Source: Campylobacteraceae bacterium
GTDB taxonomy: Bacteria; Campylobacterota; Campylobacteria; Campylobacterales; Sulfurovaceae
DNA: 64,000 nucleotides
Assembly (NCBI GenBank): GCA_027034975.1
Contig: JALVWQ010000038.1
Coordinates: 47,641-111,640 of the forward strand
Direction: 5' to 3'
Below, one piece after another: positions 3,392-42,031 of the stretch. The notes below the pieces were generated by a model. That model searched no databases. It had not been told where the DNA came from and saw only the letters and a list, made by a program, of their open reading frames with translations. Position numbers and translations under genes: made by a program. The stretch's first letter is position 1; each line of letters opens with the position of its first letter.

Positions 3392-3745
3392 ATGAATATT
3401 TCAAGTATAGTTGTTCAGTGTAAAAGCGAGAATTTCGACAAAGTAAAAGAGTGGTGCGAAAAGAGTGATATTTGTGATTACCACTTTGGCGATAAAGCTA
3501 AGGGTAAGATTATTGTAACAATCGAAGGCGAAGATGTAGGTGAAGAGATTGAGAAGTTAAAGCAAATTCAAGTAGCACCATTTGTAATTGCAGCTGATAT
3601 GATGATGACATACCAAGAGGATATGCTCGATGAAGAGATAAAGAATCTCCAAGAGCAAGACCCAGTGCCAGCCTTTTTAAATGATCCAAATACAAAGGCT
3701 GAAGATATTGTTTATCATGGTGATCTTAAGAAAAAATTGATATAA
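3392..3745 (+). CDS. napD: Nap chaperone NapD
   Basis: NapD N-terminus MNISSIVVQCKSENFDKVKEWCEKSDICDYHF; operon end. Confidence 0.85.
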   Translation: MNISSIVVQCKSENFDKVKEWCEKSDICDYHFGDKAKGKIIVTIEGEDVGEEIEKLKQIQVAPFVIAADMMMTYQEDMLDEEIKNLQEQDPVPAFLNDPNTKAEDIVYHGDLKKKLI

Positions 3746-3783
3746 ACCCAAATTTTGCGTTAGAGATTAACAACCTTTTTAGC
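3745..3783. repeat. Dispersed repeat, inverted partner of 17322-17358
   Basis: AACCCAAATTTTGCGTTAGAGATTAACAACCTTTTTAGC. Confidence 0.85.
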
Positions 3784-7743: not shown

Positions 7744-8351
7744 TATTTAATCCATAAATAGTTTCGTTTTCCTTTACGAACTATATCATATTTGAGCTGA
7801 CTATTAAGAGTCTCTATCTCTTCATAGACTTTGCTCCCTTTATAAAAGAGGTACTCTGTTTCGTTGTTACTTACTTTTGCAGTTAAATCGAGTAGTAACT
7901 TTGTATTGGTTACTGCTCGTGAGCTTATGAGCTTAAAGGGCTTTGCCTCTAAGTTTTCGACCCTATTTTTATATATGGTTACATGAGGCAACTCTAACTC
8001 TTGACTCATGAGGCGTAAAAATGAGGCTCTTTTATTGATCGGTTCAGCTAATGTAGTTGCACTCTCATCCCAAACAATGGATAAAAGGAGCCCTGGGAAC
8101 CCAGCACCTGTACCAACATCTAAAAGCGATTTTGGCTGTGGAATAAACTCTGTTGGTAAGATAGAGTCGATAATATTATCGATTATTGCCTCTTTGGTTT
8201 TTGCCCCAGTAATATTGTGTACACTGTTATACCACTGTAGTTGCTCGATAAAGAGATAGAGTTTCTCTACTTTATGATTCTCTAACTCTATATTCGAACT
8301 CTCTAACGCCTCTTTTAATGTCAAAATATTTCCTCTTTCATTTTTATTCAA
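7743..8351 (-). CDS. rsmG: 16S rRNA (guanine-N7) methyltransferase RsmG
   Basis: LLDVGTGAGFPGLLLSIV and RAVTN motifs; true start may be slightly downstream because the annotated N-terminus lies in a heptamer repeat. Confidence 0.92.
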   Translation of the reverse strand: MNKNERGNILTLKEALESSNIELENHKVEKLYLFIEQLQWYNSVHNITGAKTKEAIIDNIIDSILPTEFIPQPKSLLDVGTGAGFPGLLLSIVWDESATTLAEPINKRASFLRLMSQELELPHVTIYKNRVENLEAKPFKLISSRAVTNTKLLLDLTAKVSNNETEYLFYKGSKVYEEIETLNSQLKYDIVRKGKRNYLWIK

Positions 8352-8373
8352 AATTCAAAATTCAAAATTCATA
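8346..8373. repeat. Tandem heptamer (ATTCAAA)x3 + ATTCATA
   Basis: Read directly; begins adjacent to ribA stop. Confidence 0.9.
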
Positions 8374-8374
8374 A

Positions 8375-8938
8375 TTATAACAGGTGCCCCATCTGCTCTT
8401 TTTTTATACTAAGATACTCTTGGTTACAGCTATTGGGTTCGATGATAAGCGGAACTCTCTCGACTATCTCGAACCCCTCAAGTGCATCTAGCTTTTTAGG
8501 GTTATTGGTAAGGAGTCTCAGCTTTTTGATATTGAAATTTTTTAGTATCTCTACTACAATATCGTAGGTTCTCTCGTCTGCTTTAAAGCCGAGTTGGTGA
8601 TTTGCTTCAATGGTATCGTAGCCCTGATCTTGCAATGCATAGGCATTTACTTTATTAAAGAGCCCAATATTTCGCCCCTCTTGACGGTGGTAGATAAGCA
8701 GACCACCCTCTTTGGCAATTTGCTCTAATGAGGCGTGGAGCTGTTCGCCACAGTCACACTTTTTAGAACCTAAAACATCTCCAGTTAAACACTCGGAGTG
8801 AACTCGCACTAATGGTATATCTGGAATGGGATCGGTAAAGATTGCAAGGTGCTCTTGCATACCCTCTTTGAAGCACTGTATCTTAAAATCTCCATAGATT
8901 GTTGGAAGCTTTGCAATGCTTGATTGCTCTTGATTCAT
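8375..8938 (-). CDS. ribA: GTP cyclohydrolase II
   Basis: [23 protein letters not shown] Zn-site, RQEGRNIGL. Confidence 0.96.
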
Positions 8939-9053
8939 AAGTAGCTATTGCCTTTTTTAAAATTTTATGCAAATTATACTAATTTTTTTGCACTTTTTAG
9001 ATAAAATGTTTTAAAAAAATTTGAAATTAAGCTTATGGCTTAATTTCAGCTGT

Positions 9054-9184
9054 GAGCTAAGAGCTAAGAGTATAGAGCTAAAGATGCGGCTGCACCGCGT
9101 TTTATTATTTGCGGCGGAGCCTCTTAAAAAAGCGAAGCTACCTTATTAGCTCTAAGCTCTCTGCTCTAAGCTCTTAGCTTTTTT
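9054..9184. repeat. Intergenic inverted-heptamer element, copy 1
   Basis: Left arm GAGCTAA GAGCTAA GAGTATA GAGCTAA (9054-9081); right arm TTAGCTC TAAGCTC TCTGCTC TAAGCTC TTAGCTT (9146-9180); small hairpins between. Confidence 0.9.
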
Positions 9185-9196
9185 CAAAGGAAAATT

Positions 9197-11602
9197 TTGG
9201 CAAAAGTTTCTTGTACCCACTGTGGTTTAGAGTTTGATGAATCTGTTATGATCAAAGAGCAAGAGGGAGAGAGGGAACTCTATTTCTGCTGCAAAGGGTG
9301 CGAAGGGGTCTACCATCTTCTAAACCAAAAAGGCTTAGATGGCTTCTATGAGCAGCTTGGAAACAATAAGCTTGAGCCAGTTTCGCTAGAAGCAAGCGAT
9401 GATTTAGAGCGATTCGACTTAGAGGGCTTCCACAAAAAGTATGTAAAAACAAATAGTGAGGGCTTTAAAGAGATACATTTAATTATCGAGGGTATCCACT
9501 GTTCAGCATGTGTATGGCTTAACGAAAAGGTGCTCCACCAAACTCCTGGCATTCTAGAGGCGACTATTAACTACTCGAACAATAAGGCAAAGGTTGTTTG
9601 GGATAGCGACGAGATCAAACTCTCTAAAATTATCGAGACGATTCGGGCAATTGGGTATAACGCCTACCCATACGATCCAAAACTCCAAGAAGAGAAAGCC
9701 GTTAAACTTAGAAACGAATACTACACTCGAATTTTAGTTGGTGTCTTTGCTACAATGAACATTATGTGGATTGCCATTGCTCTCTATACTGGCTATTTTA
9801 CTGGGATGGAGCAGAGTAAAAAAAATATCTTGCATATAGCAGAGTTTGTACTGGCTACTCCGACACTCTTTTATAGTGGGTGGATCTTCTTTAGAGGTGC
9901 CTATTATGGGCTGAAGAACCGCTTTATTAATATGGATTTGCTTGTAAGTGTGGGAGCAACTTTCGCTTATATCTACTCTATTTGGGCGATGGTTACCAAA
10001 AAAGGAGAAGTCTATTTTGATTCGGTAACTATGATTATAACCTTTGTTTTAGTTGGTAAATATTTAGAGATTTTAAGTAAAAGAAAGGCTGCTGACACCC
10101 TAGATAAAATTTTAGGCTCTACTCCGACGGAAGCAATGGTTGTAGAGGGGAATAACAGAAAGCTCAAAGCGATTGAGACAATAGAGCCAGGTGAGATTAT
10201 AGAGCTCAAGGCTGGAGAGAAGGTAGTTATAGATGGTGTGCTTACAAAAGGAAAAGCTCTTTTTGATCTCAGTGTCCTTACAGGTGAGAGTGAACCTATC
10301 TTAAAAGAGCAGGGGGATGAGATTGTAAGTGGCTCTGTAGTTATTGATAGTTTAGTAGAATACAAAACTACAAAAAGAGCAAACGACTCTCTGCTGTATA
10401 ATATGACAGAGCTTCTTAGCGATGCAGTAACCAAAAAGCCAAAAATAGAGCAGTTGGCAAACCAAATAAGCGGCTATTTTAGTATAACAATTTTACTTTT
10501 GGCACTGTTGACATTTATTGGATGGTACTTTTTTATGGATGTTGGTTTTGAGAAGTCGCTAATTATTGCTATTTCGGTTATTGTAATTGCATGTCCATGT
10601 GCTTTAGGACTTGCTACACCTATGGCAACACTTATAGGAATCTCAAAAGCGGCAAAAGAGGGGATACTCTTTAAAGAAGCAAATAAAATAGAGACAATGG
10701 CAAAAGCGACTATATTGGCACTCGATAAAACTGGTACAGTTACCGTTGGCAGACCTGTGGTTGTAAACTATGCCGAGTATGATGATTACGATAAAAATCT
10801 GCTCTACTCTTTGGTAGCATCTTCGAACCATCCAGTAAGTATGGGGGTAAAGCGGTATTTGTTAGAGCATTATGAAAATTTAGAAAAGATAGATTTTGAG
10901 AGCACAAAAGAGGTACAAGCAAAGGGTGTTGAGGCGACTAAAGAGAAGCAAAAGCTTTTAGGTGGTAATATAGAGTTACTCAAAGCCAATGGGATAGAGT
11001 TTACAATAAGTAGTGAGAACACTCTCTATATTTTTGCAATTGACGGCAAAGTGGTAGCGAGTTTTGAGTTAAGAGATATAGTAAAACCGGCTGCAAAAGA
11101 GTTTATTGACTCTATAAAAGCGATGGGTATTAAGGTGGTAATGCTTACAGGCGATAGAGCTGAGGTTGCTGAAAATATAGCCAAAGAGCTTGGGATAGAT
11201 GATGTAAAAGCTAATCTGCTTCCAGCAGATAAAGCAGCTGTTATCGATAGCTACCATAAAGATGGCGAAGTTGTTGTAATGGTTGGAGATGGAATAAACG
11301 ACTCTATAGCGTTAGCAAAGAGCGATATAGCTATAGCAATGGGGAGTGGTGCCGATATAGCACTAGAGGTAAGTGATGTTGTGCTGTTAAATAGCTCTTT
11401 GAACTCTCTTAAGAGTGCATTTGCATTAGCAAAAAATGTCTATAGAGCTATAAAAGAGAATTTAGCACTGAGCTTACTCTATAATATTATTGCGGTTCCG
11501 TTAGCAATTATGGGCTATGTAACACCACTAATTGCAGCATTAGCGATGAGCTTAAGCTCTTTAACAGTGGTTGCAAATTCGTTTAGAATAAAAAAAAGCT
11601 GA
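9197..11602 (+). CDS. ccoI: Heavy-metal translocating P-type ATPase, CcoI/FixI-like (TTG start)
   Basis: N-terminal CTHCGLEF...CCKGCEGVYHLL, HMA GIHCSACVWL, CPC, DKTGTVT, GDGIND; followed by ccoS. Confidence 0.9.
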   Translation: MAKVSCTHCGLEFDESVMIKEQEGERELYFCCKGCEGVYHLLNQKGLDGFYEQLGNNKLEPVSLEASDDLERFDLEGFHKKYVKTNSEGFKEIHLIIEGIHCSACVWLNEKVLHQTPGILEATINYSNNKAKVVWDSDEIKLSKIIETIRAIGYNAYPYDPKLQEEKAVKLRNEYYTRILVGVFATMNIMWIAIALYTGYFTGMEQSKKNILHIAEFVLATPTLFYSGWIFFRGAYYGLKNRFINMDLLVSVGATFAYIYSIWAMVTKKGEVYFDSVTMIITFVLVGKYLEILSKRKAADTLDKILGSTPTEAMVVEGNNRKLKAIETIEPGEIIELKAGEKVVIDGVLTKGKALFDLSVLTGESEPILKEQGDEIVSGSVVIDSLVEYKTTKRANDSLLYNMTELLSDAVTKKPKIEQLANQISGYFSITILLLALLTFIGWYFFMDVGFEKSLIIAISVIVIACPCALGLATPMATLIGISKAAKEGILFKEANKIETMAKATILALDKTGTVTVGRPVVVNYAEYDDYDKNLLYSLVASSNHPVSMGVKRYLLEHYENLEKIDFESTKEVQAKGVEATKEKQKLLGGNIELLKANGIEFTISSENTLYIFAIDGKVVASFELRDIVKPAAKEFIDSIKAMGIKVVMLTGDRAEVAENIAKELGIDDVKANLLPADKAAVIDSYHKDGEVVVMVGDGINDSIALAKSDIAIAMGSGADIALEVSDVVLLNSSLNSLKSAFALAKNVYRAIKENLALSLLYNIIAVPLAIMGYVTPLIAALAMSLSSLTVVANSFRIKKS

Positions 11603-11612
11603 AAGCTTTTTT

Positions 11613-11767
11613 AAGCTAAGAGCACAGAGCTCAGAGCCGAGAGCTAAAGGAGGCTTCGCCTTTTTTTATGTGGCAAAGCCACAATATTTAAAAAGCAACG
11701 AAGTTGCACCACAAGCTCTTCGCTCTAGGCACTAAGCTCTCAGCTTTTTTAGCCTTTGGCTAAAAAA
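11613..11767. repeat. Intergenic inverted-heptamer element, copy 2
   Basis: AAGCTAA GAGCACA GAGCTCA GAGCCGA GAGCTAA (11613-11647) ... CAAGCTC TTCGCTC TAGGCAC TAAGCTC TCAGCTT (11712-11746); internal hairpins AGGC-ttc-GCCT, GTGGC-aaa-GCCAC, GCAAC-gaa-GTTGC; terminal stem TTTTTTAGCC-ttt-GGCTAAAAAA. Confidence 0.92.
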
Positions 11768-11781
11768 CCAAAAGGAAAGAT

Positions 11782-12021
11782 ATGAGTGATAATGTAATAA
11801 CTTTAATGATAGGTATCTCTACAGCACTTGGTGCATTTGGGCTTTTTGCTCTTATTTGGGGGATAAAGACAGGACAGTTTGATGATCAGACAAAGTTTTT
11901 AGATGGAGCCAAATTTGATAGCGAAGAGGATTACAAAGATGCTGTTATGATGGAGCAGAAGAAAAAAGAGGCACTTAAGAAAAAAAGAGAGAAAGAGAAG
12001 AACTATCGCCCAGCGGATTAG
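11782..12021 (+). CDS. ccoS: cbb3-type cytochrome oxidase assembly protein CcoS
   Basis: Small single-TM protein, ALIWGIKTGQFDDQ motif; next to ccoI. Confidence 0.88.
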   Translation: MSDNVITLMIGISTALGAFGLFALIWGIKTGQFDDQTKFLDGAKFDSEEDYKDAVMMEQKKKEALKKKREKEKNYRPAD

Positions 12022-12176
12022 GAGCTAAGAGCATAGAGCTTAGAGCCGAGAGCTAAAGGAGGCTTCGCCTTTTTTATGTGGCAAAGCCGCAAATATTAAA
12101 ACGCGGCAAAGCCGCACAACTAGCTCTTCGCTCTGTGCTCTTCGCTCTTAGCTTTTTAGCCGTTAGGCTAAAAAAA
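12022..12176. repeat. Intergenic inverted-heptamer element, copy 3
   Basis: GAGCTAA GAGCATA GAGCTTA GAGCCGA GAGCTAA (12022-12056, first base after ccoS stop) ... CTAGCTC TTCGCTC TGTGCTC TTCGCTC TTAGCTT (12120-12154); hairpins AGGC-ttc-GCCT, GCGGC-aaa-GCCGC; terminal stem TTTTTAGCC-gtta-GGCTAAAAA. Confidence 0.93.
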
Positions 12177-41204: not shown

Positions 41205-41290
41205 AAACTAACAACCTTCCAACTTCAAACTTTTTCTACCCTATATTTCCTCCAAAGCCCCAGCTTTAGAACAAGAGAAAAACACAAACC

Positions 41291-41339
41291 TCAACTCTTA
41301 ACTCTCAATTCTCAATTCTCAATTCTTAATTCTTAACTC
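41291..41339. repeat. Seven tandem heptamers (coding-strand GARTTRA; plus-strand TYAAYTC)
   Basis: TCAACTC TTAACTC TCAATTC TCAATTC TCAATTC TTAATTC TTAACTC; last unit contains the YggS-family stop codon. Confidence 0.95.
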
Positions 41340-42031
41340 TCAAATAGTCTCGATCCAATTCTAACCATATTGGAGCCACACTCAATTGCTAATTTAAAAT
41401 CACCACTCATTCCCATCGAGCAGATTGTGGCACCACTCTTTTGAAGCTGTTCATAAATCTTATAGGTTCTCTCGAAGCTCTCTCGTATCTCTTTAGTATC
41501 TTCGCTATGTGCACCAATTGTCATAACCCCTTTTAAGGTAAGGTTTGGACAACTCTCTTGTATCTGCTTGTAGATATCGATCGCCTCTTCTGGTTTTATA
41601 CCACTTTTGCTTGCTTCATAAGAGCTATTAATTTGTAAAAGACCACTAAGAGTTCTCCCTTTCGATTCAAGCCGTTTATTAAGCTCTTGAGCTAACTCTA
41701 AAGAGTCTATTGAGTGTATCAGCACTGGGTTAAGATCGATTAACTTATTGATCTTATTCTTTTGTAGTGTTCCAACCATATGCCAAGCTAGTGGTAATTC
41801 ATCTAAAGCTTCGACTCGTTGGGCTAGCTGCTGTACCTGATTTTCACCAAAGTTTCTCTGACCGAGTTCATAAAGTGTTTTGATATTCTCTATCTCTGTA
41901 TATTTGCTTACAACAACAAGTTGCACAATAAGGTGCTCGCTTCTTGCTACTCTTGCCTCTTCGATATCCCAAATAACTCTATCTAAGTTTGCTCTTAATT
42001 TCTCTTTCTCTAAAATCATTGTTACCCCCAA
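41333..42031 (-). CDS. YggS-family PLP-binding protein
   Basis: LVVVSKYTEIENIKTLYELGQRNFGENQVQQL, GMSGDFKLAIECGSNMVRIGSRLF. Confidence 0.95.
   Translation of the reverse strand: MGVTMILEKEKLRANLDRVIWDIEEARVARSEHLIVQLVVVSKYTEIENIKTLYELGQRNFGENQVQQLAQRVEALDELPLAWHMVGTLQKNKINKLIDLNPVLIHSIDSLELAQELNKRLESKGRTLSGLLQINSSYEASKSGIKPEEAIDIYKQIQESCPNLTLKGVMTIGAHSEDTKEIRESFERTYKIYEQLQKSGATICSMGMSGDFKLAIECGSNMVRIGSRLFES

Follow-up and report, generated by a model that had tools for sequence, protein, structure and literature searches.

Three elements in which inverted arrays of tandem heptamers enclose short hairpins lie around the ccoI and ccoS genes in the 64,000-nt stretch of DNA analysed here (the window). 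We asked what these elements are, how they came to lie in the gaps of this locus, and whether they serve the host.

Three heptamer-armed elements at the cco locus

Re-inspection of the window found all three elements where a preliminary description had placed them, before ccoI, between ccoI and ccoS, and after ccoS, and located their arms (copies 1 to 3, at 9047-9180, 11613-11746 and 12022-12154; Table 1). In each copy, facing arms of four to five heptamers enclose an interior of 63-64 bp. The gene names given earlier held: the neighbours are RibA, the CcoI/FixI copper P-type ATPase, CcoS/FixS (PF03597), and an RNase_T exonuclease. With up to two mismatches allowed, GAGCNNAGAGCNNAGAGC matched the window 18 times, always within the arms of the three copies, against 0.5 matches expected from window shuffles (maximum 3). 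Every copy folded far more stably than shuffled sequences on both strands (z from −4.9 to −8.0). Rfam yielded two tRNAs above the gathering score in the window and no match for the repeat.

Table 1. Features of the three copies (positions are those of the 64,000-nt window)
Feature	Position	Strand	Remarks
Copy 1 flanking hairpin, TGAAATTAAGC-ttatg-GCTTAATTTCA	9022..9048		A/T-rich, left side
Copy 1 left arm	9047..9081	+	GAGCNNA heptamers: four good units from 9054, one degenerate from 9047
Copy 1 interior	9082..9145	-	Three mini-hairpins, orientation opposite to copies 2 and 3
Copy 1 right arm	9146..9180	+	Five TNNGCTC heptamers; ends 16 nt upstream of ccoI start codon
Copy 2 left flanking hairpin, AAAAAAGCT-gaa-AGCTTTTTT	11592..11612		Includes ccoI stop codon
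Copy 2 left arm	11613..11647	+	Five heptamers
Copy 2 hairpin H1, AGGC-ttc-GCCT	11651..11661	+	T run next
Copy 2 hairpin H2, GTGGC-aaa-GCCAC	11670..11682	+	
Copy 2 hairpin H3, GCAAC-gaa-GTTGC	11695..11707	+	
Copy 2 right arm	11712..11746	+	Five heptamers; ends 35 nt upstream of ccoS start codon
Copy 2 right flanking hairpin, TTTTTTAGCC-ttt-GGCTAAAAAA	11745..11767		
Copy 3 left arm	12022..12056	+	Five heptamers, starting immediately 3' of ccoS stop codon
Copy 3 interior	12060..12115	+	H1 12060-12070, H2 12078-12090, H3 12103-12115
Copy 3 right arm	12120..12154	+	Five heptamers; ends 36 nt upstream of exonuclease-gene start codon
Copy 3 right flanking hairpin, TTTTTAGCC-gtta-GGCTAAAAA	12153..12174		

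The hairpins quoted in the preliminary description stand in copies 2 and 3, but copy 1 holds diverged versions of them in the opposite orientation. Likewise, the A/T-rich stem that it noted at the ends of copies 2 and 3 lies to the right of copies 2 and 3, but to the left of copy 1, and copy 2 has a second hairpin on its left. The direction of its hairpins and the side of its A/T-rich stem show that copy 1 is inverted with respect to the other two; its covariance-model match (9047-9180) is on the minus strand. Copies 2 and 3 show a mosaic similarity to each other. Two other heptamer arrays were seen in the window: (TTCAAAA)n at 8329-8385, at the start of a 16S rRNA methyltransferase-like gene that adjoins ribA, one gene from the cco cluster, and a degenerate (CTCAATT)n array at 41278-41349, at and just past the 3' end of a YggS-like gene.

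The copies belong to a dispersed and patchy family

Pattern, BLAST, and covariance-model matches were combined into a catalogue of 21 two-armed copies and 23 single arrays in the source genome (G000; 1.77 Mb, 97% complete). Copy 1 as query found 33 places in its own genome, and the heptamer pattern gave 148 matches there (0 for the reversed control). The covariance model gave 62, a count that takes in both strands because the element is palindromic. The search of relatives with this model, proposed in the preliminary description, revealed many further copies: 21-111 matches in each of six sister species (G001, G004-G006, G009, and G010) and 15 in a single member of a different genus. Two sister species gave a few weak matches, and three sisters (G002, G008, and G011) and three other members of the taxonomic family gave none. 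Copies from six species (33-42 copies) aligned as one family. Arrays of four exact units were present in 2 of 299 near-complete Campylobacterota genomes, the source genome and one other.

These results confirm that the three cco copies are members of one dispersed repeat family. The idea of a non-autonomous repeat that settles in intercistronic gaps was borne out by dozens of copies here and in relatives and by sites that related genomes have without the element. A function bound up with the cbb3 oxidase locus found no support, as the copies adjoin unrelated genes and the cco genes are not special hosts. The family is patchy within its genus: six further species carry it in abundance, and others lack it. 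Since several relatives live without any copy, it is dispensable at the level of the genus.

Fixed and free positions of the arms, and covariation in the interior

The arm unit is GAGCNNA or its reverse complement: five of its letters are fixed and two are free, and each arm has 4-5 units. The GC of T--GCTC was kept in 220 of 221 units from 46 arrays, both N positions being free. The arrays are of nearly fixed length and have a defined outer end, TNAGCTT. In a 33-copy alignment, diversity in the NN columns of the middle units was 0.60-0.77, near saturation, while most core columns were near zero. Mean identity between copies was 0.96 in the core, 0.77 in the interiors, and 0.30 at NN, where 0.32 is expected by chance; in copy pairs with interiors 80-90% alike, NN identity was still 0.31. 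A subfamily has AAAGC in place of AGAGC. When 50 copies were typed arm by arm, 34 were all-AGAGC in both arms, 12 all-AAAGC, and 4 mixed by one unit (r = 0.98 between arms).

The interior consists of three mini-hairpins, with 96.5% of stem cells in the alignment paired. H1 reads GTAGC, GTGGC, or AGGC, and a GTAG/CGTC tag is not conserved. The stems contained 44 two-sided compensatory cells, compared with 13.6 in shuffles, none of which, out of 500, reached that count; the signal was lost when the stem partners were slid out of register. The preliminary description had staked itself on further copies and on covariation in the stems, and both were found. Pairing of the arms through their NN letters was rejected, since the match between left and right arms at these positions was no higher than shuffled. 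Opposed NN letters in the folded arms were in fact less complementary than shuffled ones (33% versus 43%), with p = 0.004 counting G-T pairs and p = 0.048 without them, in one of several tests.

Empty sites, turnover, and flanking hairpins

A check of related genomes for empty sites, as suggested earlier, showed that the ccoI-ccoS gap is empty in G006, G007, G008, G011, and G012. The ribA-ccoI gap is element-free in G003 and G011, and no element precedes ccoI in G002, G007, or G008; the gap between ccoS and the exonuclease gene is empty in G003, G004, G006, G007, G008, G010, and G011. In G005 each of the three gaps holds an AAAGC-type element, and in two of them a further inverted heptamer array, GAAAACN, is nested in the interior. 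This second inverted heptamer family was observed in neighbouring gaps at positions 862-939 and 3620-3746 of locus L161 (G005:C9).

G000 and G001 are about 90% alike. In 16 aligned loci both have the filled site, and at L185/L217 and L179/L222 the element is in G001 only. At L178/L070 the same site with the same flanking hairpin holds interiors in opposite orientations in different species; the inner units moved with the interior, which places the crossover within the arms. Arms gain or lose single units between species, and the same site is filled by different subtypes in different species. At L198 (G001) and L215 (G000), a single AGAGC array in one species corresponds to a full AAAGC-type element in the other. 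Single arrays are also kept in place between species. The orthologous single arrays of L192 and L216 have about 60 bp of identical downstream flank, yet about half of their NN positions differ. A separate observation concerns L061 (G000:C47:1-4700), where repeated fragments of one gene end each start right after a single heptamer array, with small genes in between, among them a RelE-like and HTH pair, as if the arrays mark recombination joints.

Of 59 outer flanks, 9 contained a perfect stem of at least 8 bp with a loop of 3-5 nt; the control frequency, measured on stretches of these loci, was 0.28%. Their sequences are specific to each locus. The stem at L200 repeats, in inverted form, the final codons of the gene upstream, the hairpin beside copy 3 has a nearly identical counterpart in the G005 orthologue, and both hairpin arms changed together between species at L187/L071 and L186/L044. 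The hairpins are missing at empty cco gaps, that of copy 1 from the orthologous gaps of G003 and G011, yet short hairpins are present at two other empty sites; they may be targets, products, or scars of insertion. Two comparisons bear on target-site duplication. In L179 versus L222, the empty site has a single hairpin, and in the filled site a hairpin flanks the element both left and right; in L185 versus L217, no clear duplication was seen beside the element.

Constraint on the element in place

Substitutions between G000 and G001 were counted at shared sites ascertained on G000, and ascertainment on G001 gave a like picture. The interior was substituted at 14 of 320 positions (4.4%) and the NN letters at 34 of 240 (14.2%), the latter equal to intergenic DNA (485 of 3425, 14.2%); codon positions 2 and 3 were substituted at 3.8% and 26%. 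The arm core was substituted at 27 of 604 positions (4.5%), a value biased downwards because the arrays are recognised by their core, but one that would stay below that of NN even if doubled; the interior is free of this bias. Core and interior thus diverge about one third as fast as intergenic DNA, and NN diverges at the intergenic rate. Since low divergence of core and interior is not what mere decay after insertion would leave, and NN has not been homogenised by conversion, selection probably acts on the element where it stands, although gene conversion between copies could imitate part of the constraint.

Placement relative to genes

The 21 two-armed copies were distributed over 15 co-directional gaps, 6 divergent gaps, and no convergent gap. 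Their outer edge usually lay 13-36 nt upstream of a start codon, with gene starts set by a simple ORF rule, a position that the short gaps of a compact genome partly impose. The interior ran along transcription in 10 cases and against it in 5, a bias that is not significant. Such placement agrees with an element that is symmetric between strands. A scan of the region for terminator-like sites found 7 against 2.8 expected, a mild enrichment.

Searches for a means of spread

No reverse transcriptase (RVT_1) match was found in G000, G001, G005, G006, G010, or G014, and arrays written by such an enzyme (DGR or DRT10-like) were rejected for lack of a match in the genome. Y1 transposases do not track the family, Y1 genes being present also in relatives without copies. 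Identity with RAYT/REP was rejected on this mismatch in distribution and on the missing GTAG tag. The only Y1 (IS200-type) match of the source genome, L233 (G000:C10:120266-120622), is interrupted by an in-frame stop. Within the loci read, no transposase lay between the arms of a pair, and an autonomous transposon between distant arms was discarded, as the only pair 1.4 kb apart in the genome flanks two ordinary host genes. A phage origin was likewise dropped, the two-armed GAGCNNA pattern being found on one viral contig only (IMGVR_UViG_3300044960_000747; L239 and L240), which carries two copies of it. Slippage alone does not account for arrays of nearly fixed length with a defined outer end, though one-unit gains and losses occur.

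Heptamer arrays in other phyla and in known systems

In GTDB genomes, 69 stretches were found to carry the same core as a pair of inverted arrays with a spacing of 50-80 bp. Besides Campylobacterota, the carriers include Opitutae and other Verrucomicrobia, Planctomycetota, Fibrella isolates, Alphaproteobacteria, Nitrospira, Actinomycetota, Anaerolinea, Omnitrophota, and others, and the interiors in other phyla are unrelated. Array matches in eighteen such genomes ranged from 4 to 166 per genome, and most controls gave zero. Many other heptamers lie near the arrays. In a lag scan with GAGC arrays removed, period 7 dominated among periods 5 to 11, with 19 of 23 arrays in loci of the genus, 27 of 41 in other phyla, and 4 of 6 in the window; the sample is biased, as its loci were selected for the presence of one heptamer array. 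The cultured Bacteroidota species Fibrella rubiginis has a perfect inverted pair of GGATT-type heptamer arrays (L095, 7819-7942).

Heptamers are the most abundant class of long simple repeats, with polymerase slippage as the guessed origin (PMC4692102, PMC4679880). Degenerate intergenic arrays have been described as GGGAATC/(GGGANTN)n in Xanthomonas and GGGGA(C/T)T in Nostoc (PMC4692102), and TAACTGA arrays in Beggiatoaceae, Cyanobacteria, and Bacteroidetes (PMC4679880). These arrays, and the three tandem heptanucleotides of Calothrix, resemble ours in their 7-nt step, fixed and free positions, and mostly about four units; they too are intergenic, often near start codons, sometimes in inverted pairs, and patchy across phyla. 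In our elements, unlike these arrays, a conserved interior whose three hairpins covary lies between two arms that each have a defined length and outer end, and the copies form one alignable, dispersed family with two subtypes.

REP, BIME, and REPIN sequences (PMC3733652, PMC3116915) are also short intergenic palindromes with small loops, dozens of copies, and proposed roles in RNA and DNA, but their units are 20-40 bp, whereas ours are about 130 bp, lack a conserved GTAG/CGTC tag, and have no matching RAYT in the genome. The MITEs Correia of Neisseria (PMC2649163) and BrickBuilt of Porphyromonas (PMC4596501) are likewise non-autonomous and intergenic with inverted ends, and can act on neighbouring genes. 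BrickBuilt carries tandem repeats, as here, in the form of a 23-nt minisatellite inside the MITE. In our family, by contrast, the tandem repeats form the inverted ends, and no parent transposase was found in the loci read. Terminal inverted repeats, many dispersed copies, and empty sites are MITE traits that it shares. No report of this heptamer-armed family was found in a literature search that covered few subscription papers.

Discussion

The comparisons demonstrate common ancestry of the copies, presence/absence polymorphism, covariation of the stems, and constraint on core and interior with free NN letters. The interpretation that we tentatively favour, at somewhat short of even chances, is a non-coding, near-palindromic MITE- or REP-like repeat of about 130 bp that spread patchily in one genus, has been held for long at its sites, and acts as an interrupted hairpin before cistrons. 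In mRNA, the two arms would pair in 5-bp blocks with 2x2 NN mismatches between them, and the resulting long, interrupted hairpin would stand immediately 5' of the Shine-Dalgarno sequence of the gene that follows. In either orientation, such a hairpin could serve as a spacer or stabiliser that separates the expression of two neighbouring cistrons. The NN mismatches would keep the arms from forming a perfect duplex, a target of RNase III or, at the DNA level, of SbcCD. Judged from sequence comparison, a host function of some form is likely, and an RNA-level role of the repeat, suggested in the preliminary description, is plausible and compatible with the constraint in place.

It is possible, though on balance unlikely, that the element is a selfish non-autonomous transposon without host function, whose heptamers are bound by a transposase acting in trans that reads a GC every 7 bp and leaves NN unread, with conversion keeping core and interior alike. 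Inverted arms of defined length ending in TNAGCTT, empty sites, arms matched in subtype within a copy, different subtypes at one site in different species, and the mosaic similarity of copies 2 and 3 all fit such an element. Conversion should, however, even out the NN letters, and their identity is at chance (0.30 versus 0.32 expected); moreover, no locus read has a transposase between arms, and Y1 transposases do not follow the family.

A heptad-reading protein might instead cover both arms as a DNA-level site and bridge or insulate neighbouring genes, RNA folding being incidental. Ribbon-helix-helix repressors such as omega of pSM19035 read 7-bp heptads. The near-invariant GC (220 of 221 units), the strict 7-bp step with two free positions, independence of orientation, and the keeping of single arrays in place agree with this proposal, which we nevertheless consider rather improbable: the interior stems and the flanking hairpins both show compensatory changes, which point to single-strand folding, and no candidate for the hypothetical binding protein was found.

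A broader proposal, which we regard as improbable, is that one unrecognised process writes heptamer-armed inserts into bacterial genomes and forms its own class of genome-writing or mobility system. Its traces would be the degenerate heptamer core shared by distant phyla, the strict 7-nt step, the chance-level NN identity of sister copies, and the foldback hairpins of local DNA.

A transcription attenuator or terminator pair, also raised in the preliminary description, is very unlikely. The T run after H1 and the mildly enriched terminator-like sites would suit it, but the H1 stem has only 3-4 bp, no copy lies in a convergent gap, and most stand just before a start codon. The lack of a significant orientation bias (10 versus 5), together with an interior inverted between two species, argues against a strand-specific attenuator.

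Least probable of all is a template-copying enzyme (telomerase-like or a diversity-generating RT) that writes the arrays with random NN letters and makes hairpins by foldback copying of flanks; NN at chance even between copies with interiors close to 90% alike, NN as the sole adenines of a TAAGCTC template, and perfect foldback hairpins of local DNA such as that of L200 would be expected of it, but the 97%-complete genome and most carriers have no RVT_1 match, adenines elsewhere in the interior are conserved, and NN in place drifts as fast as ordinary intergenic DNA. The repeats produced by the main DRT10 system studied are 9 nt long and are not genomic (PMC12632851).

Over-representation of heptamers in bacteria has been reported since 2007, its origin explained only by the guess of slippage. 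The present family offers a tractable case: its sites can be compared empty and filled, it has orthologous copies and two subtypes, one unit combines fixed with free letters, and the constraint in place can be measured. It makes testable what enforces the 7-nt step and whether the arrays serve the host as RNA or DNA elements. If the arrays do act on gene expression, dozens of operons in these bacteria would bear an unannotated regulator.
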